Virus record (IMG/VR): IMGVR_UViG_3300004151_000011
Location: 1 to 53,467 of that record
Reading direction: 5' to 3' (one strand)
Length of the DNA stretch: 53,467 nt
Source of the DNA: a virus
Shown here: one piece after another, positions 3,361 through 43,037 of the stretch
Numbering within the stretch: position 1 is the first letter of the stretch
How the letters are laid out: each line of letters opens with the position of its first letter
Position numbers and translations under genes: made by a program
The notes under the pieces: generated by a model
The model's input: the letters and a program-made list of their open reading frames with translations, nothing else
Database searches by the model: none
Told to the model about the DNA's origin: nothing

Positions 3361-3394
3361 GGAGCCGTCTTCTTTATGAGGAGGCTCCTTTTTT
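3361..3394 (+). terminator. Intrinsic terminator whose 3' arm carries the next Shine-Dalgarno
   Basis: GGAGCC (3361-3366) pairs with GGCTCC (3383-3388), and TCTTC inside it pairs with GAGGA, giving about 11 base pairs followed by six T. AGGAGG at 3379-3384, the Shine-Dalgarno of the next gene, lies inside the 3' arm, so folding would also hide it. Confidence 0.7.
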
Positions 3395-3998
3395 GGGTTC
3401 CACCATGGCATCTGACTTCTCACCGCAAATAGCGAATATTAACAAATTACTTTTGGAAAAAATCCGCGTTTCGCAGGTTGAAATGGCGCGGAAATTAGTA
3501 TCGCTTGTCGTGAGGAAAAGCAATCCATCCGTAATTGAGACAATTGTTGATGGTGTTCATGGAAGATCAATTGAAGATGTTCAGCCATTCGGAGTAATAG
3601 AAGTCCATTTCGGCTATGATATTGCCGAGATAATATCTGCCGCTATTGAAATTCTTAGCGCAGTAAGCCCAATAAAGACTGGGGCTTATCAGAGATCTCA
3701 TCAGGTATACATTAATGGATCGATGGTTTCAGATATTGCAGAGCTTGGATCAGAAAAAAATATAGTGATTGCCAGTACTCTTCCATACTCAAATAAAATA
3801 GAGCATGGGCAGTCACCTCAGGCGCCAGACGGTGTTTATTCACATGCCGCAGAAACGCTAGCGCGCCGTTTTGGTAATAAATATCACATCGAAGCTGGGT
3901 GGGCTGGTTTTGGAGGGGGCGCCGTTATGGGCGGCTCGGCCGGAAACAAGTCGGCGGTCCGCTATCCCGCCCTCATCATCGATCGGATTGCACCATGA
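3393..3998 (+). CDS. Minor tail / tail completion-like protein, AT-rich
   Basis: A 201-residue protein between the chaperone and the tape measure. It probably starts at TTG 3393, eight bases after AGGAGG; ATG 3405 is possible but lies farther from the Shine-Dalgarno. Segments such as LSAVSPIKTGAYQRSHQVYING and ASTLPYSNKIEHGQSPQAPDGVYSHAAETLARRF follow the pattern of HK97 gp10-like proteins ('spvdtG.lr.s', 'yA..vE.G...ap.g.l..a'), which complete the tail end. The gene has far lower GC than its neighbours, which suggests recent exchange. Confidence 0.6.
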   Translation: MGSTMASDFSPQIANINKLLLEKIRVSQVEMARKLVSLVVRKSNPSVIETIVDGVHGRSIEDVQPFGVIEVHFGYDIAEIISAAIEILSAVSPIKTGAYQRSHQVYINGSMVSDIAELGSEKNIVIASTLPYSNKIEHGQSPQAPDGVYSHAAETLARRFGNKYHIEAGWAGFGGGAVMGGSAGNKSAVRYPALIIDRIAP

Positions 3999-6900
3999 GT
4001 GACGACGTTGTTGAACTCCGCGTTGACGCCTCCGCAGGTGTGCGGGCTTACCAGGAAATGGTGGACGCCGCCGCCAGAGCATCAGAAGCGCAGGCGCGAT
4101 TCGCTTCGACCATGTCCCTGTCGTCCGACAAAATGGGTGGAGCTGCCGCTCAAGCATCCGCTTTTGCTGACGCTGCGCGAAAGGCATCGACGGAGCTGGA
4201 GCGTGTCGGCTTCACTCAGAGTGGAGCAGCGGCGGCAAGAATGTCCGACGCGCTTGGCCTTGCGTCGTCTGGTATCGGTCAGATGTCAGGTGGATCGCTG
4301 GCTGCATCTGAGGCGCTGGCATTCCATGCCGCTCAAATGCAACGCGCGACCGAGGCCGCTCGCACTGCAACTGATGCCCACAGTAGGCTGTCTGCTGCCA
4401 CCACTGTGGCTACCACGCATATTGCTGGAGCAGCCAGCGCGCTGGACCTCATCAGCAAGGCGGCTGGGGCGGCATCGACTGGGCTTGATGCGGTGGGGCT
4501 TGTGCCTGCCGGTATAGCAGCATCCGAGGCCTCAGCAAAAATCTCCACTGTCGTTGGCGTCATGAACACCGCGTCGGCCGCCGCCGGCTATCTCTCCGAG
4601 CTGGTTTCGAAATTTTCCAGCGAGACGGTAAGCGCCGCTGATGCAAATCAGTCATTGGCCAAGGTCTCAGTGCAGGCCGTTGACGCGGAAGGCAACCTCC
4701 TTGTCGAGACAAAAGATCTTGTTGGTGCGACAGAAAGCTTAGCAAATGCAGCGACGCGGGCTAGCGATACCCAAGATTCATTGACCGGGTATTACATCAC
4801 CGCCGCTGCTGCTCTTGCTACATTAACGACAGCGACATATCTAGCTTATAAGGCGATTGAATATATCGCCGAAAAAATCTCCGAGGCCATTGCCGCAGAG
4901 CAGGCATGGGAAGGAGAAATTTCTGGTTCGACGGCGCTACTCGCCGCACTTTCCGACGCCAGCCTTGCGGCGGCCGATGCGCATCGCCTCCTCACCCTGG
5001 AAATGGGATCCGGGGCTGATGTAATGGCAAAAGCCGGAGGAATTGCACGAGATTATGGCATCTCCCAGGAAGCCGCCGCATCTGCCCTGCGCCATGTCAA
5101 CGATATCCTTGATGATACCAACGACGGGGGGGCAAAAGGCCGAGAGATTTTTAAGGATCTAGGTATTACGGCTGATAACGCGGCAGAAGCTCTCGACAAG
5201 TTTGCTCAAAGGATGGCAGGCATCAAAGACAGCTCTGCCAAAATGCACACAATTCGCGAGGTTCTGGGAGAGAATGCTCAGCAGTTTCTGGACGGGATCG
5301 CCACTGGAGCAGGGAGTATTTCGCACGCCTTTACTGAACTTGATAGAATCCAGAAGGCCAACGCGAACGCAATCGCTGACAGCAATGCGAGAATAAGAGA
5401 ACTGGACCGCGCATATATTGCCGATCAAGAATCTAAAAAGGCGGCGACAAAAGAGTTTGAGGAAAGGCAGGTTGCGGCCCTTTTGCACATATCCCTCGCA
5501 GCAAAAGAATTTGCGCACGAGTATTCATCTGCTATGGCGTCTGTCGAAAGCGGTGGCGAAACGATATCCAGTGCTTGGGATAAAACCGTTCGCCTGATGG
5601 AGCGCATCCCCGGCCTTATGGCCGCAGCGGCACGGTCCGTCCAAGACTATGCCCAGGTGGCAGCGCACGCCGCCGTCCCCCGCTTGGTCAATCCGCCGGC
5701 TATCCCCGATAAGGTGGATAGTCGTCCTGATGATCCGTCAGTGCATAAGCGCGAAGTCTCAGCGACCGATGCATCGACGAGCAAAGCCGTTGAGGCAGCC
5801 CGGGCTGCACTGGAGGCGCTGAAGCTCCAGGAGGAAAACTGGTTGACCTGGAGCCGGCAGAAGGAGATCGAATATTGGGCGCAGAAGCGCCAGACCATGC
5901 TGTCCGAAATGCCGAAAACCCTCTCTGCCGAGGAGGCGGCGCAAACGGCAGGCGTCAAGCAAATCGACGCCATCATGCAAGGTCTCAGACGGGATGAGGC
6001 CAAGGCGCGCGCGACGGCCGAAGAGACGGCCCGGAAAGAGCGGGAAACGGCCTCGAACGCCGAGGCTGACCGCGCCCTGAAAGCAACCGTGCTGCGTCTG
6101 CGCGCTGAAGAGCAGGAGGTTGCCAAAAATGGCGAGGCCCACGTTGCCAAGCAGCGGGAAATTGCCGAGGCAGTCAGGGCGGCAAAGGGGGATGATTCCG
6201 TCGAATACCTTGCCGAGCTTGTCAAGCTTCAACAGGCCGAGCGCGAGGCCGGGCAGCAAGTGGCTCGAATCAAAATGGCCTCGGCGGAGACATCATCCAA
6301 AATCGCTTTGGCTGGGCTTGAAGCTGAGCGCGAAATTCTCGCCCAGCGTCGAGCTATGGGCGAAATTTCTGCCGTTGAAGAAGCGGATCTGGCTATTGAG
6401 ATTGAGGACAAAAAGAGGGCTGTAAAACTTGCAGCCGCCCAACAGCGGCTTGTAGATTTGAAAATTCACGATTCGATGAATCTTGAAGAAATCAAAAAGG
6501 CAGAATCATCCGTCACGCAGTTGATGGCCGAGCAACAGACACAGAGAACAAGAGATCTTAAGTCTGCATTGCTTGAGAGGCAAAGGGCATCAAAGGCTAC
6601 ATCAAGCATTGAATCAGATGGCCTTGCTAATCAAGCCAGCTACGGCGTGTCAATACAAGAGGAAAATCTTTCCTTCGGAAAATCAATGGGGACTGTCGAC
6701 GGTAGGGAAGAAATCGCGTCGCTGCGGCAGATCGCCGAGCAGAAATATCAAATTGAACGAGACTTGCTCGATAAGAAACTTCAACTCGCCGGCCAGGATG
6801 AGGCAGCTCGGGCAACGGTCGCCAATCAATTGGTCGACCTCGAACAGCGGCGAGCTCTGCGGACACTCCAGATCGACCACCAGGAAGTCATCGGCCGTCA

Positions 6901-7870
6901 GGCGACGATGAAATCTCTGACGGCTCCCTTCGGCCAAGCGATCGATCAGATGACGCAAGGTTTTATCCAGGGGACGCTGACCCAAAAACAGCTCGTGCGG
7001 CAGGCCGCACAGTCGATCGCCGCCAGTTACGCTAGCATGGGCGTCAAGATGATTGCGAACTGGCTGCACACCCATGTTGTTATGGCGGCGGCAGAAAACC
7101 TGTTTGCTGGAACGGCTGTTGGGCGATGGATGGGGTTTGAGGCAACAAAAACAGCGGTAACCAGCACGGCAACAGCAACACGAACTGGAATTGTTGGCAC
7201 CGGGGAAGCTACCCAAACCGGGATTAAAGCCACCAACACGGCGCAGCAGGCCACTATTGTAACAACTGGTGCCGCAACGGAAACCGGGGCGGTTATTACG
7301 GGCGAGGCGTCAAAAAATGGTGCCATTGCGGCGGGTGGCCTTACGGGCCTTGCTATTAAGGCCGCCACATCGATCAAATCGATCATGATGGATGCATGGA
7401 CCGCGATGGCTGGTGCTTATGCGGCTATTGCGGCGATTCCTTACGTCGGCCCAGTGCTGGCTCCAATCGCCGCCGCCGGAGCATTTGCTGCTGTTGCTGG
7501 TATCGCATACAGCATTACCTCGGCCGAAGGTGGCTGGGGGGAAGTTCCTTGTGACGGGGCCAGAACCGTCCTCCACAAACAGGAAATGGTTCTTCCGGCT
7601 AAATACGCGGCACCCCTTCGCGACCTGCTGACCAATCCGTCCTCCGCTGGTGTTGCAGATCGCCAGCCGCCGCTGGCAACATCCCGGAGCGCCTCTGCCC
7701 CAGGAAGCAGTGGCGGCGGGGTTCACCTTCATTTTCACGGCGGCGTAAATGACGGCGAGGGGATCAAGCGCCTGATCGCCAGCCATGGCCCCACCTTGGC
7801 AGCCACCCTGCATAGGCAGGCCAGAAATGGCAACCCATCTATCCGCCCGGGCAAAGGTGTTTTGCGCTGA
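3995..7870 (+). CDS. Tail tape measure protein
   Basis: A 1291-residue protein and the longest gene here, as expected for the protein that sets tail length. ATG 3995 overlaps the previous stop (ATGA). Long Ala/Glu/Lys-rich coiled coils fill residues about 600-1000, and hydrophobic stretches lie near 270-300 and 1130-1210 (AYAAIAAIPYVGPVLAPIAAAGAFAAVAG), which fit membrane insertion at DNA ejection. The C-terminus has the common tape measure phrase AEGGWGEVPCDGARTVLHKQEMVLP. A Thr/Ala/Gly-rich degenerate repeat precedes the last hydrophobic block. It is assembled with the chaperones encoded upstream. Confidence 0.9.
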   Translation: MSDDVVELRVDASAGVRAYQEMVDAAARASEAQARFASTMSLSSDKMGGAAAQASAFADAARKASTELERVGFTQSGAAAARMSDALGLASSGIGQMSGGSLAASEALAFHAAQMQRATEAARTATDAHSRLSAATTVATTHIAGAASALDLISKAAGAASTGLDAVGLVPAGIAASEASAKISTVVGVMNTASAAAGYLSELVSKFSSETVSAADANQSLAKVSVQAVDAEGNLLVETKDLVGATESLANAATRASDTQDSLTGYYITAAAALATLTTATYLAYKAIEYIAEKISEAIAAEQAWEGEISGSTALLAALSDASLAAADAHRLLTLEMGSGADVMAKAGGIARDYGISQEAAASALRHVNDILDDTNDGGAKGREIFKDLGITADNAAEALDKFAQRMAGIKDSSAKMHTIREVLGENAQQFLDGIATGAGSISHAFTELDRIQKANANAIADSNARIRELDRAYIADQESKKAATKEFEERQVAALLHISLAAKEFAHEYSSAMASVESGGETISSAWDKTVRLMERIPGLMAAAARSVQDYAQVAAHAAVPRLVNPPAIPDKVDSRPDDPSVHKREVSATDASTSKAVEAARAALEALKLQEENWLTWSRQKEIEYWAQKRQTMLSEMPKTLSAEEAAQTAGVKQIDAIMQGLRRDEAKARATAEETARKERETASNAEADRALKATVLRLRAEEQEVAKNGEAHVAKQREIAEAVRAAKGDDSVEYLAELVKLQQAEREAGQQVARIKMASAETSSKIALAGLEAEREILAQRRAMGEISAVEEADLAIEIEDKKRAVKLAAAQQRLVDLKIHDSMNLEEIKKAESSVTQLMAEQQTQRTRDLKSALLERQRASKATSSIESDGLANQASYGVSIQEENLSFGKSMGTVDGREEIASLRQIAEQKYQIERDLLDKKLQLAGQDEAARATVANQLVDLEQRRALRTLQIDHQEVIGRQATMKSLTAPFGQAIDQMTQGFIQGTLTQKQLVRQAAQSIAASYASMGVKMIANWLHTHVVMAAAENLFAGTAVGRWMGFEATKTAVTSTATATRTGIVGTGEATQTGIKATNTAQQATIVTTGAATETGAVITGEASKNGAIAAGGLTGLAIKAATSIKSIMMDAWTAMAGAYAAIAAIPYVGPVLAPIAAAGAFAAVAGIAYSITSAEGGWGEVPCDGARTVLHKQEMVLPAKYAAPLRDLLTNPSSAGVADRQPPLATSRSASAPGSSGGGVHLHFHGGVNDGEGIKRLIASHGPTLAATLHRQARNGNPSIRPGKGVLR

Positions 7871-7929
7871 TATTGCCGAACTCGCTTGGCTGCGACAGGA
7901 TGGTTCTGTTGCAACCAAGGGGTGATTCC

Positions 7930-8880
7930 ATGGCAGATGTGCGGGAAAATATCCGAGAATGGGTCGTTCGCGTGTTCTCGCGGGCGGTTAATGGGGTGTC
8001 GAACGAGGATGACCGGCGCGAGATCATTGACTGGCTTGCCAGGTCACGCGACATTCTGGCAAGCGATGGGACAAAACGGGAGAAATTTTCAGCCTTATAT
8101 GGCCTGATGGATGCACGCAAGACAGCCCGTGTCTTTGCTCACAGCATCGCTGAGACGATCAAAAATTATAAGAACGCCGATTTGCCGCTTTCGGTAAAAA
8201 TTGCCATTCCCATAACATTGTTTGCAGCCCCATTTGTCGGAGGACAAGGGGCTGGCGTGGCAGCGATCGGGAGCGCGATCGGCCTTCCTGTTCTGCTGCT
8301 TATTTTCTTAGGATCGGCAGGCATCACGGCTGTTCTAGAGAGTTTTACAACAAATAAAGATTCATCTCCATTAATAATGGCGGTCCTTGAGGTGATCGCG
8401 GAGGACGAGATCGCACGGCGCACTAGTGCGGCTTTGAAAGCGGCGATGCGTGATGAGCCGATTGAGTCGAAGCGGTACAAGATGCCATCGGACGATTCCC
8501 GGTTGCTCCAAAAGCTCTTGGATATGGATCCTTTTGAGTTTGAGCGGCACGTTGTCAGTTTTTTCAGTGACGCCGGCATGGTCGCTTGGGTAACGCGAAA
8601 GTCGAACGACTTTGGGGTTGACGGGTTCGCCCGGCACGCTGACGGTTTGTTTGTGATTCAGTGCAAGCGATATGCGCTCGACAATCCCGTGTCAGCCCCG
8701 CAGGTGCGCGAATTCAAAGGCGTTATCGAGGAAAGCGGCGCCGCGCGTGGTTATTTTGTGACGACGTCTCGCTTCACCGCCGATGCGGTAGATTCAGCCA
8801 GTAAATCTGATCGGCTGCTGCTAATCGATGGGCATGATCTGATCGGATGGCATTCGAGGCCACCATTTCAGACCCTGTGA
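7930..8880 (+). CDS. Membrane-anchored Mrr-like restriction endonuclease (moron)
   Basis: A 316-residue protein. Residues about 85-135 form two hydrophobic segments (VKIAIPITLFAAPFVGG, AIGLPVLLLIFLGSAGI). Residues about 190-310 match the Mrr-type PD-(D/E)XK nuclease fold: DPFEFERHV at the start of the domain, FGVDGF with catalytic D231, and QCK at 244-246 in place of the usual QxK, then a Gly-Tyr-Phe-Val-Thr-Thr strand. Mrr family enzymes cleave DNA, often modified DNA; a membrane anchor would place the nuclease at the site of DNA entry. It lies between tape measure and distal tail genes, where it has no structural role, and is followed by a terminator. Superinfection defence is inference. 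ATG 7930 was chosen; an upstream TTG at 7873 is possible. Confidence 0.8.
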   Translation: MADVRENIREWVVRVFSRAVNGVSNEDDRREIIDWLARSRDILASDGTKREKFSALYGLMDARKTARVFAHSIAETIKNYKNADLPLSVKIAIPITLFAAPFVGGQGAGVAAIGSAIGLPVLLLIFLGSAGITAVLESFTTNKDSSPLIMAVLEVIAEDEIARRTSAALKAAMRDEPIESKRYKMPSDDSRLLQKLLDMDPFEFERHVVSFFSDAGMVAWVTRKSNDFGVDGFARHADGLFVIQCKRYALDNPVSAPQVREFKGVIEESGAARGYFVTTSRFTADAVDSASKSDRLLLIDGHDLIGWHSRPPFQTL

Positions 8881-9001: not shown

Positions 9002-9041
9002 CCCATCGGGGCCGCTCTCGAAAGAGGCGGCCCTTTTCTTT
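8985..9041 (+). terminator. Terminator cassette, copy 1
   Basis: A strong hairpin with a CGAA loop (9008-9033) is followed by TTTTCTTTT. About 57 bases including the upstream TAACCACCAC and CTGACCCA segments recur almost unchanged at 21411-21464. It closes the nuclease cassette and sits directly before the Shine-Dalgarno (GGAG) of the next tail gene. Confidence 0.75.
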
Positions 9042-9053
9042 TGGAGCCGAGCC

Positions 9054-9647
9054 ATGGCCGAACTGGTTTATCCCGAGCTGCCCGGCCTGACCTACGGCAA
9101 CAAAAAGACTCCGATCTTCTCCACCACGGTGGCCACCGGCGCCTCGGGCCGGGAGCAGCGGGTCCAGCGATGGGCCTACCCCCGGTGGCGGTTCGAGATG
9201 GTCTACGAGTTCCTGCGCGATTCGAGCGCCTATGACGAGCTGCGGCCACTGGTTGGGTTTTTTCTGGCAGCCGCTGGCCAGGGCAATAGTTGGCTCTATC
9301 GCGATCCCAGCGACGACACCGCCACCGGTCAATTGATCGGGGCGGGTGACGGCGAGACTCGATCATTCCAGATGGTCCGCACGATTGGGGGGTGGACCGA
9401 GCCGGTCCGGGCGATCAACGTCTTGTCGTCCGTAAAAATAGACGGAACTTCAACTTCAGCATTCGTCGTTGATAAATCAACTGGCTTACTGACGTTCAGC
9501 AGCGCCCCTCCCGTTGGTGCTCAGATTTCATCCACGTTCACGTTCTATTTTCGCTGTCGCTTTTTGTCTGATGAAACTGAGTTCTCGCAGATGATGTCTT
9601 GCTTCTGGGAAAATGGCCAAGTCCAATTCGAAAGCGTCAAGGAATAG
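9054..9647 (+). CDS. Distal tail protein, DUF2460 family (GTA ORF12-like)
   Basis: A 197-residue protein of the TIGR02217/DUF2460 family. The signature parts are all present: an N-terminal segment on the varying tail ring, RVQRWAYPRWRFEMVYEFLR, then PLVGFFLAAAGQGNSWLYRDPSDDTA and a late FYFRCRFLSDETEFSQM. In GTAs and related siphophages this protein forms the distal tail ring joining the tube to the hub. It is the first of four genes in the canonical GTA order (12-13-14-15). GGAG lies ahead of ATG 9054 right after the terminator. Confidence 0.88.
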   Translation: MAELVYPELPGLTYGNKKTPIFSTTVATGASGREQRVQRWAYPRWRFEMVYEFLRDSSAYDELRPLVGFFLAAAGQGNSWLYRDPSDDTATGQLIGAGDGETRSFQMVRTIGGWTEPVRAINVLSSVKIDGTSTSAFVVDKSTGLLTFSSAPPVGAQISSTFTFYFRCRFLSDETEFSQMMSCFWENGQVQFESVKE

Positions 9648-18597: not shown

Positions 18598-19035
18598 TCA
18601 CCCCTCCGGCCAGAACTCCGGGCTCATCGCCTGTTCAAACGACCAGGGGCAGGTGGACGGGAAGGTCCGTTCGGGGAGACCAGTTTCCAGGCACGCCTCG
18701 CCGATCGCCCGGCGGTAGGCCCGAGTCATCGCCTCGGGGATCTGCGGTTTGAGGCTCGGGTTGTCATCGAGCAAATCGGAAATATCAAGGCGCTGGTTGA
18801 AGATCGTCGTGCGCCATGACGCGCCCTGAAAGAGGGGCTGATACTGCCACTTCAGGAGGTGCATGAACAGCACGGTCAGGCGGTTGACCAGTTCGCGCTT
18901 CTCGGCCTTGCCCATGCTCTCGATCTCTTCGGCAATGTTCTCGATGTCGGCGGCGTCGAGCTTCCCGGCCCGCAGCAGCGCGGCCTGCTCGTTCGCCCAG
19001 GCGTAGAAGTCGGTGTCGTAGAGGGTGGGGGTCAT
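18598..19035 (-). CDS. DUF29 family protein
   Basis: A 145-residue member of DUF29, small helical proteins abundant in cyanobacteria and alphaproteobacteria, of unknown function. The signature runs through YDTDFYAWANEQAALLRAGKLDAADIENIAEEIESMGKAEKRELVNRLTVLFMHLLKWQYQP and the late LETGL..TFP..CPW.FEQ. Family copies are often dispersed on mobile DNA. Here it is the last gene of a leftward operon XRE - DUF1640 - DUF29. Confidence 0.88.
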   Translation of the reverse strand: MTPTLYDTDFYAWANEQAALLRAGKLDAADIENIAEEIESMGKAEKRELVNRLTVLFMHLLKWQYQPLFQGASWRTTIFNQRLDISDLLDDNPSLKPQIPEAMTRAYRRAIGEACLETGLPERTFPSTCPWSFEQAMSPEFWPEG

Positions 19036-19044
19036 GATGCCTCC

Positions 19045-19359
19045 CTACTTCAGCAACTTGGCGAGGCCGAACATCGCAACAAGCACGGCAACGGTATTGA
19101 GGGTTGCCGCCCCAATGACAACCGCAATGACCGATTTCAGCAGATCGGCTTTTGCCTCTGAGACCGTGGTTTCGATTTTCGCGCCCAGTTCGGTTTTGAT
19201 GGTGGCGCTTTCCCGCGCCAAATCGTCTTTGCTGGCAAGTTCGCGGCTTGTCGCGGCGATGAAAGCTTCTGCCGTCGCCCTGGCCTGCTGGTGTGTGAAT
19301 CCGCCGGCTTCCAGGGTTTCAACGAATTTTAGCGTGTCGAACTGAATCACCTCGCTCAT
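19045..19359 (-). CDS. DUF1640-type coiled-coil membrane protein
   Basis: A 104-residue protein with FDTLKFVETLEAGGFTHQQARATAEAF (the CCDC90/DUF1640 start), a heptad-rich middle with Lys/Glu, and one C-terminal membrane span (VIAVVIGAATLNTVAVLVAMF). Function unknown; the family resembles the mitochondrial MCUR1 coiled-coil proteins. It starts in a four-base overlap with the stop of the XRE gene upstream, so they are co-translated. Confidence 0.85.
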   Translation of the reverse strand: MSEVIQFDTLKFVETLEAGGFTHQQARATAEAFIAATSRELASKDDLARESATIKTELGAKIETTVSEAKADLLKSVIAVVIGAATLNTVAVLVAMFGLAKLLK

Positions 19360-22100: not shown

Positions 22101-23333
22101 ATGCTGATGGGCATTCGAAAATCCTCATACACGCCCAAGAGCGGCAAGCCGGGCTGGGTGTGCGATTACCGGGACGCGGCCGGGAAACGGCACCAGGAAT
22201 CGTTTCCGACCCGGGCGGCGGCGCAGGCGCGTTATGTTGAGGTCCAGGAGCAGATCCGGGCCGGGACGCATGTGGCGAGCAGCGACTCGCCGACGGTGGC
22301 GCGGGCGGCTGAACTGTTCTTGACGGCGATCGAGCAGGACGGCGCGGCCCCCTCGACGCTGGCCGGGCACAGGCTGGCCTACAACAACCAGATCGCCCCG
22401 CTGCTGGCTGGCCGTCGGCTGTCGGCCATTACCCCGGCAACGGTGCAGGCGTTTCTCGATGATCTGTCTGCGGCCGGGCGGAGCGATGACACGGTGAGCC
22501 GGGCCAAAAAGACGCTGGGCGCGATCATCGATGAGGCGATCAGGACGGGCCGGGCGGCACACAATCCGGTTCGGGCGCTCCGGGCGCGGCGACGAATCCG
22601 GCGGCGGGACATTGAGGCGCGATCCTCGACCCGGGCGGTCTGCCCCGAGCGGGAGGACGTGCGGGCGCTGATTGAGGGCGCTGACGCCAGCAAGGCTTGG
22701 CCGACTGGCGGCGGCCCGGTGCGGGCGGCTCCCTGGCTCCAGCCCTGGCTGGCCTGCATTGCGCTGGCCGGACTTCGGCCGGGGGAAGCCCGAGGCCTGA
22801 CCTGGGGTGCGGTCAATCTGGAGGCCGGCTGGATCGAGGTGCGGACGGCGGCAGACGCTTGGGGTAACCTTGGCCCGGTCAAAACGGCGGCCGCGCTGCG
22901 GCGAGTGCCGATCGGTGATATCCTGCTCGGAATGCTGCGGGATTGGCGTGGGGTGTGTCCAGCCAATGCGGCGGGTCTAGTCTTTGCCTCCAGCGGGAGC
23001 CGGGTCAAACCGGGCCGCGTGCCAGTCTTGTCGCTGACTAACATTATCCGCAATCAGTTCGACCCGCTCCAGCGCCGGCTCAGGCTGGTGGGTGAGGACG
23101 GGGAGCCCCGGTATACGCCGCACAAGTTGCGGCATTTCGCCGTCAGCCTGTGGATCGACGAGGGCGCCGATGTCAAGCAGATCAGTCAATGGGTCGGGCA
23201 TGAGTCAGCGGCGTTTACCCTCGATGTCTATGGCCACCTGTTCCAAGCGCGGGCACTGGACCGGACCACGGCGTCGGCGGGTGAGCGGTCGGTGTTTGGG
23301 CTGATTGGGGCGCGGCAGGAAGCGGTGCGTTAG
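22101..23333 (+). CDS. int: Tyrosine recombinase (phage integrase)
   Basis: A 410-residue integrase. The N-terminal part (SGKPGWVCDYRDAAGKRHQESFPTRAAAQARYVEV) is an arm-binding domain, followed by a SAM-like core-binding domain. Catalytic residues are visible: R226 in ALAGLRPGEARG, a lysine in GPVKTAAALRRVPI, H341-x2-R344 in HKLRHF, H367 in WVGHES and nucleophile Y377 in LDVYGH. It joins attP and attB for lysogeny. ATG 22101 or 22107. The gene lies beside the plasmid module, so integration and plasmid maintenance genes are adjacent. I could not identify attP. Confidence 0.93.
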   Translation: MLMGIRKSSYTPKSGKPGWVCDYRDAAGKRHQESFPTRAAAQARYVEVQEQIRAGTHVASSDSPTVARAAELFLTAIEQDGAAPSTLAGHRLAYNNQIAPLLAGRRLSAITPATVQAFLDDLSAAGRSDDTVSRAKKTLGAIIDEAIRTGRAAHNPVRALRARRRIRRRDIEARSSTRAVCPEREDVRALIEGADASKAWPTGGGPVRAAPWLQPWLACIALAGLRPGEARGLTWGAVNLEAGWIEVRTAADAWGNLGPVKTAAALRRVPIGDILLGMLRDWRGVCPANAAGLVFASSGSRVKPGRVPVLSLTNIIRNQFDPLQRRLRLVGEDGEPRYTPHKLRHFAVSLWIDEGADVKQISQWVGHESAAFTLDVYGHLFQARALDRTTASAGERSVFGLIGARQEAVR

Positions 23334-42573: not shown

Positions 42574-42651
42574 CGGTGTGTAGCTCAGCCAGGCCAGAGC
42601 ATCGCGTTTGGGACGCGAGGGCCGGCGGTTCGAATCCGTCCACACCGACCA
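42574..42651 (+). tRNA. tRNA-Pro(TGG)
   Basis: A complete 78-base cloverleaf with encoded CCA. Acceptor CGGTGTG pairs with CACACCG, anticodon stem TCGCG/CGCGA, loop TTTGGGA with anticodon TGG, T arm GGCGG-TTCGAAT-CCGTC. It reads CCA proline codons, which are used little by a GC-rich host but more by the AT-rich phage genes. Confidence 0.93.
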
Positions 42652-42652
42652 T

Positions 42653-42727
42653 GGGGCCTTAGCTCAGTTGGGAGAGCATCGCGCTTGCATCGCGAAGGTC
42701 GGGGGTTCGAGCCCCCAGGCTCCACCA
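42653..42727 (+). tRNA. tRNA-Ala(TGC), one base short in the T arm
   Basis: Acceptor GGGGCCT/AGGCTCC with CCA encoded, standard D arm, anticodon stem TCGCG/CGCGA and loop CTTGCAT with anticodon TGC. The T arm is GGGGG-TTCGAG-CCCCC, with six instead of seven loop bases, making the gene 75 instead of 76 bases. It begins two bases after the tRNA-Pro gene. Confidence 0.88.
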
Positions 42728-42785
42728 AGATCTGGTGCCACGCAAGGCGTGCGGTAATCAGGTTGTCGAGAACCAGACGGGGTGA

Positions 42786-42858
42786 TTGGGCGTAGCTCAG
42801 TTGGGAGAGCACCTTCCGGGCCGGAAGGAGGTCGGCGGTTCAAGTCCGTCCGCCCACG
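42786..42858 (+). tRNA. tRNA-like sequence, anticodon position GGC (Ala?), lacking U33 and CCA
   Basis: The D arm (GCTC-AGTTGGGA-GAGC) and T arm (GGCGG-TTCAAGT-CCGTC) are canonical and the acceptor TTGGGCG/CGCCCAC has one mismatch at the first pair. The anticodon stem CCTTC/GAAGG closes a loop CGGGCCG, so position 33 is G where nearly all tRNAs have U. CCA is not encoded. It is either a decaying tRNA or a tRNA-like RNA with another use. Confidence 0.55.
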
Positions 42859-42961
42859 CGATCTGGGTGCCGCAAGGCATGATGTAAAACGAGGCGTCGA
42901 GACCACGCCTATCGACAACCCGGCGGGGCGATCCCGCCACCAGACCCAAGACACCGACCAC

Positions 42962-43037
42962 GCCGCCTTAGCTCATCAGGTAGAGCGCCGGCCTTGTAAA
43001 CCGGAGGCGCGGGGATCGTGACCCCGAGGCGGCTCCA
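42962..43037 (+). tRNA. tRNA-Thr(TGT)
   Basis: A 76-base cloverleaf with encoded CCA. Acceptor GCCGCCT/AGGCGGC, D stem GCTC/GAGC, anticodon loop CTTGTAA with TGT, T stem CGGGG/CCCCG. The T loop reads ATCGTGA instead of the usual TTCGAnT, and the last anticodon-stem pair is C-A, so it is divergent from cellular tRNAs. Confidence 0.85.

Follow-up and report, generated by a model that had tools for sequence, protein, structure and literature searches.

We analyzed a 53-kb virus record from IMG/VR (53,467 nucleotides, here called the window) and found a gene for a predicted membrane-anchored nuclease within its tail genes. A preliminary description of this DNA had placed the gene between the tape measure and distal tail genes, and the matches of the flanking genes bear this out, with phrog_2854 upstream and a DUF2460 protein downstream. 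The features of the locus are as follows.

3899-7870, plus strand: tape measure protein gene, given as the longest open reading frame (the true start may be at about 3999); phrog_2854, 3.7e-18
7871-7922, plus strand: putative leader element of the cargo gene, with a TTGCCG-N17-CAGGAT promoter-like pair at 7873-7901, a GGCTGCGACAGG core, and TTGCAACCAAGGGG, which includes the Shine-Dalgarno sequence
7930-8880, plus strand: gene for the predicted membrane-anchored Mrr-type nuclease, ATG start, 316 aa; PF04471, E = 1e-28; phrog_19856 (a PHROGs family of unknown function), E = 2.5e-58
7930-8181, plus strand: charged N-terminal region, residues 1 to 84; no family match, common to the L002 and L003 proteins
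8182-8340, plus strand: two hydrophobic segments, residues ~85 to 103 and ~107 to 137, a predicted membrane anchor (Kyte-Doolittle)
8518-8850, plus strand: Mrr_cat PD-(D/E)XK domain, residues 197 to 307 (Pfam, residue invariance, confident fold, Foldseek)
8542-8544, 8620-8622, 8659-8661, and 8665-8667, plus strand: predicted active-site codons for E205, D231, Q244, and K246, respectively (residue invariance)
9008-9042, plus strand: terminator-like hairpin with a T-rich tail, -22.6 kcal/mol, abutting the DUF2460 ribosome site
9054-9647, plus strand: DUF2460 tail-tip gene, the first past the cargo slot; phrog_2913, 1.9e-52 (the L002 orthologue matches PF09343)

Downstream of the nuclease, the PHROGs matches give the gene order DUF2460 (phrog_2913), DUF2163 (phrog_778), an NlpC/P60-type minor tail protein, and a large tail protein. 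The arrangement of tape measure, DUF2460, DUF2163, and NlpC/P60 genes is familiar in alphaproteobacterial siphophages and gene transfer agents. Two further genes of the window bear on the lifestyle of the phage.

22101-23333, plus strand: tyrosine integrase gene; phrog_1, 1.9e-57; PF00589
35493-35870, minus strand: helix-turn-helix (HTH) repressor-like gene; phrog_3, 2.2e-11

Since the window contains both an integrase and an HTH repressor-like gene, the phage is temperate; we take it to be a siphophage of an alphaproteobacterium. The window also has a gene for a DUF29 protein (18598-19035, minus strand; PF01724, 2e-52) downstream of the tail genes, and a cluster of four tRNAs, Pro(tgg), Ala(tgc), Ala(ggc), and Thr(tgt), at 42574-43037.

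The catalytic part of the nuclease is well defined. Its Pfam match to Mrr_cat scored 100.2 bits against a cut-off of 21, a GVDG motif starts at residue 229 and a QCK motif at residue 244, and none of E205, D231, Q244, and K246 varies across 14 aligned homologues. The initial claim of an Mrr-like PD-(D/E)XK domain with D231 and QCK at 244 to 246 was thus exact in its positions, and the predicted active site is intact. The AlphaFold model of the domain is confident, with pLDDT values above approximately 85 across most of residues 181 to 310, and the top Foldseek matches to it were MspJI and AspBHI, followed by the Hjc (Holliday-junction) resolvases; a sequence search of solved structures returned nothing relevant. 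In PADLOC, the type IV model mREase_IV matched the catalytic part of the protein (8.9e-15). When the full protein was searched against Pfam, only catalytic-domain families were found, with no modified-DNA recognition domain and with the N-terminal part unmatched.

Mrr domains can serve as modification-dependent restriction enzymes without any injection step at the membrane. The protein could accordingly be read as a membrane-anchored, type IV-like restriction enzyme that cuts phages or plasmids only if their DNA has modified bases, the membrane being either incidental or a means of raising the local concentration. This account draws on the nearest solved folds, which are the modification-dependent MspJI and AspBHI, and on the mREase_IV match, and the window nuclease does share its catalytic domain and active-site residues with the Mrr and type IV endonucleases (PF04471; MspJI, AspBHI). 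In contrast to those enzymes, it has a hydrophobic hairpin and no matched DNA-recognition domain: the catalytic domain stands alone in Pfam, and the N-terminal third consists of a unique charged region and the hydrophobic segments. We therefore consider type IV-like restriction unlikely.

The preliminary description had also noted two membrane segments ahead of the nuclease domain. The second of these holds up, with a strong Kyte-Doolittle value of 2.4 for residues ~107 to 137, while the first (residues ~85 to 103) is less certain, with a moderate value of 1.8. Both segments are kept in all three full-length proteins (from the window, L002, and L003), which are also the only ones in which the N-terminal 84 residues were seen, and the membrane part of the AlphaFold model has low confidence. 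An inner-membrane anchor is likely, and two segments would leave both ends of the protein in the cytoplasm, as would fit a DNA nuclease. Several other Mrr proteins from viral contigs also have two hydrophobic segments ahead of Mrr_cat, whereas no hydrophobic segments precede the domain in the Mrr relatives aligned from Alphaproteobacteria genomes, which suggests that this design recurs in phage DNA. Such proteins are encoded in viral contigs L013 to L020 and L022, which are mostly GC-rich, and the copy in L013 sits amid DNA primase and helicase genes.

Comparison of the window with related contigs showed that the gap between the tape measure and DUF2460 genes varies in content. In L002, the closest relative, a nuclease 78% identical to that of the window occupies the same site, with a gene for a BamE-like lipoprotein ahead of it and an ATGA overlap between the two. 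Two other contigs have a filled slot without the nuclease, in which a BamE-like lipoprotein gene is followed by one for a second lipoprotein (phrog_16082) in L024 and by one for a third, unrelated lipoprotein (phrog_14789) in L028; these two contigs come from the same metagenome and are related, so that they are not fully independent, although their second cargo differs. The slot is empty in L050, where the tape measure stop codon overlaps the DUF2460 start codon (GCATGA), so the cargo of the window is inserted between genes that are adjacent in a relative. The suggestion that this site is normally closed to insertions does not survive these comparisons, and its assignment as a variable moron slot, with the nuclease as cargo, is well supported by them. 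Each of the four cargo types is predicted to be an envelope protein. A small gene for a CCDC90-like coiled-coil (DUF1640-type) protein at 19045-19359 of the window (minus strand) resembles a fragment at 10977-11153 of L002, which is also on the minus strand and lies in the cargo slot between the nuclease and DUF2460 genes; L024 has a remnant resembling this fragment in the equivalent gap.

The content of the slot bears on whether the protein might instead act as an abortive or toxic effector, in which case the nuclease of this membrane protein would kill the infected host rather than act on incoming DNA directly. Abortive systems include nuclease effectors with membrane segments, which counts for such a role, and the glycine/alanine-rich hydrophobic hairpin could conceivably sense membrane perturbation. 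However, the window slot holds a single gene with no sensor partner, and the co-cargo of its relatives consists of lipoproteins, typical of entry exclusion. We find an abortive role very doubtful.

The nuclease also differs from the adjacent tail genes in its rate of change. Between the window and L002, neighboring tail genes are 21 to 49% identical, and dN is 0.16 for the nuclease, with synonymous change saturated, compared to 0.65 for DUF2460, 0.77 for DUF2163, 0.50 for the P60-type gene, and 1.29 for the tape measure, the last value resting on a poor global alignment of 21% identity. Good conservation extends to the gene that immediately precedes the tape measure, at 3393-3998 (dN of 0.23). 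The nuclease is under purifying selection and is found beside very different tape measures, so that it is neither decaying nor a co-evolving part of the tail. A tail or virion component, in the form of a nuclease or membrane protein that aids this phage's own DNA entry, would suit a site between the tape measure and tail-tip genes, where membrane proteins could help injection. Yet the gene is absent from L024, L028, and L050, which have the same tail module, so it is dispensable for this tail type; it is conserved far above the tail genes, and the L003 copy lies behind a repressor (see below). We rejected this role as highly improbable.

Immediately upstream of the cargo we found a leader of approximately 50 bp, TTGCYCAACTCTWT-GGCTGYGRCAGGAT-N8-TGCAACCAAGGGG, that ends at the Shine-Dalgarno sequence of the cargo gene. 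Across four related contigs, it precedes six cargo genes, namely, the window nuclease, the BamE-like gene of L002, and both cargo genes of L024 and of L028. In the window the leader occurs once when up to 3 mismatches are allowed, compared to zero times in shuffled sequences, and a corrected pattern matched only L002, L024, and L028 in IMG/VR besides the window. We rejected the idea of a widespread element, because there was no convincing match in collections of phages and plasmids and no near-identical pattern in any of 385 genomes of the Rhodoblastus class. In five of the six copies, the leader has TTGC and CAGG(A/T)T at a 17-bp spacing, which is promoter-like; the full TTGCCG-N17-CAGGAT pair is our own reading, and its TTGCCG (-35) part is not kept in the L002 leader. 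A promoter scan found no sigma-70 consensus promoter at the leader. A sigma-54 reading was set aside because the GG/GC spacing does not fit. An RNA hairpin may be drawn in which 87% of cells pair, but covariation is not above that of shuffles; the folding energy of the leader is ordinary for the window, and Rfam gave no match to it. Our preferred reading is that the leader provides a promoter of its own and a ribosome site.

The 13-bp SAS/ESAS element of cluster K mycobacteriophages, GGGATAGGAGCCC, is found near gene starts in many copies per genome (PMC3203893). Like the leader, it is repeated immediately ahead of the start codons of some genes, and in certain cases it includes inverted repeats. 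The leader differs from it in sequence, in its restriction to one cargo slot with one or two copies per phage, and in its inclusion of the Shine-Dalgarno sequence. A limited literature search found no description of a cargo locus with a repeated leader.

At the other end of the slot, the nuclease gene had been described as closed by its own terminator, and the hairpin and T-rich tail at 9008-9042 agree with this, although a simple terminator scan did not list them. At the sequence level, each of the four filled sites (window, L002, L024, and L028) ends in a terminator-like hairpin, which continues into the ribosome site of the DUF2460 gene. The composite of terminator stem, TTTTCTTTTGGAGC, and start codon (9008-9050 in the window) recurs in 27 further viral contigs (L069 to L095) from otherwise different phages, as if terminator tail and Shine-Dalgarno sequence were fused into one module. 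The pattern of terminator plus ribosome site was rejected as a marker for the locus, since it matched 30 stretches and the new ones lack these tail genes, with one weak tape measure match among them.

The cargo families also occur elsewhere in phage genomes. Rhodoblastus acidophilus DSM 137 (L003, the same as L004) encodes a full-length relative of the nuclease, 48% identical, in a prophage region close to replication genes and 27 bp downstream of a phage repressor gene (phrog_4, 4.7e-12); this is the only nuclease relative found behind a repressor. The BamE-like lipoprotein gene immediately follows the repressor in coliphage PhiR26_1 and Pseudomonas phage YMC11/07/P54, and in Salmonella S107 it is a near neighbor of the repressor. 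In Pseudomonas U7, PP9W2, and D14C it belongs to the tail operon, where it precedes the tape measure, and in Alteromonas P24 it is found near the tape measure. In Pseudomonas U9, Fyn8, BR153a, and CF213a, the gene that immediately follows the repressor is that for the phrog_14789 lipoprotein. Two coliphages have the fourth cargo family within their delayed-early region. The position right behind a prophage repressor is thus shared by three of the four cargo families, two of which, the nuclease and BamE-like ones, are found near the tape measure as well. Genes behind the repressor are expressed in the lysogen in known phages, as with lambda rex.

The preliminary description had allowed for either late expression or a promoter of the gene's own. 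These positions, together with the cargo-specific leader, favor expression of the nuclease in the lysogen, and the case for a lysogen function of the cargo rests most heavily on the repressor-adjacent position, by association rather than as proof. Alternatively, the gene could act late, being expressed with the tail operon in the lytic cycle to break down the DNA of the host or of competitors, or to keep an infected cell from being infected again. Its position and orientation within the late operon are as expected for a late gene, and the promoter scan found no consensus promoter; against this stand a leader that is specific to the cargo and absent elsewhere in the window and the three cargo families directly behind repressors. 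Late action seems to us quite unlikely.

The best explanation of the locus, to which we give slightly better than even credence, is that it encodes a lysogen-expressed, inner-membrane Mrr nuclease moron that excludes superinfecting phages by cutting their DNA. In such a mechanism, a temperate siphophage would carry, in the slot between its tape measure and DUF2460 genes, a moron with its own leader and terminator, and the nuclease would be made mainly in the lysogen, from the prophage. The hydrophobic hairpin would tie the enzyme to the inner membrane and leave its catalytic Mrr domain facing the cytoplasm, where that domain would cut superinfecting phage DNA on its way out of the injection channel, and the resident chromosome would be spared through confinement of the enzyme to the membrane. 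We infer the lysogenic expression, the membrane location, the DNA cutting, the discrimination by location, and the exclusion itself, and a role against rival phages is the best available functional guess. Against this exclusion reading stand the lack of a sigma-70 consensus in the leader scan, the single nuclease relative behind a repressor, the moderate hydrophobicity of the first segment, the low confidence of the membrane part of the model, and the capacity of Mrr domains for modification-dependent restriction.

Three known systems resemble parts of the proposed mechanism. SNIPE (PD-lambda-1) is a membrane-bound nuclease that cuts phage DNA at injection and associates with tape measure proteins (PMC13190303). 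It shares with the window protein an N-terminal membrane anchor, represented in the window by the predicted hydrophobic segments at residues 85 to 137, a C-terminal nuclease, and the proposal that incoming DNA is told apart by its location where injection takes place. However, SNIPE combines GIY-YIG and DUF4041 domains, neither of which Pfam finds in the window protein; since the latter has an Mrr PD-(D/E)XK domain and lacks DUF4041, it is not a member of SNIPE, and, as a further difference, its gene is carried as cargo within the tail operon of a phage. HK97 gp15 is a predicted inner-membrane exclusion protein that is likewise encoded by a phage moron; it blocks DNA entry by long-tailed phages, and tape measure swaps escape it (PMC10883804). 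That account does not describe gp15 as a nuclease, whereas the window protein fuses a nuclease domain to its membrane part. Tab of Pseudomonas phage JBD26 is a defense moron that is expressed from the prophage and, like the window nuclease, is encoded within a late structural operon; in contrast, it is a non-nuclease of 83 residues that blocks tail assembly via the tape measure (PMC10884400).

A broader proposal, which we offer tentatively as a possibility, is that the SNIPE strategy has been realized here through an unrelated Mrr nuclease and a modular slot, in which exclusion genes are swapped beside the tape measure, each cargo with the same leader of ~50 bp. If this is true, a second, unrelated class of nuclease would act at the membrane and tell incoming from resident DNA by place, not by sequence, and a phage-carried injection-site nuclease would guard the phage's own lysogen. 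The leader, cargo, and terminator beside the tape measure make up a small, defined locus in which to look for superinfection-exclusion genes, and gene families that alternate between repressor-adjacent and tape measure slots would be likely exclusion genes, a rule that may be used in mining phage genomes.
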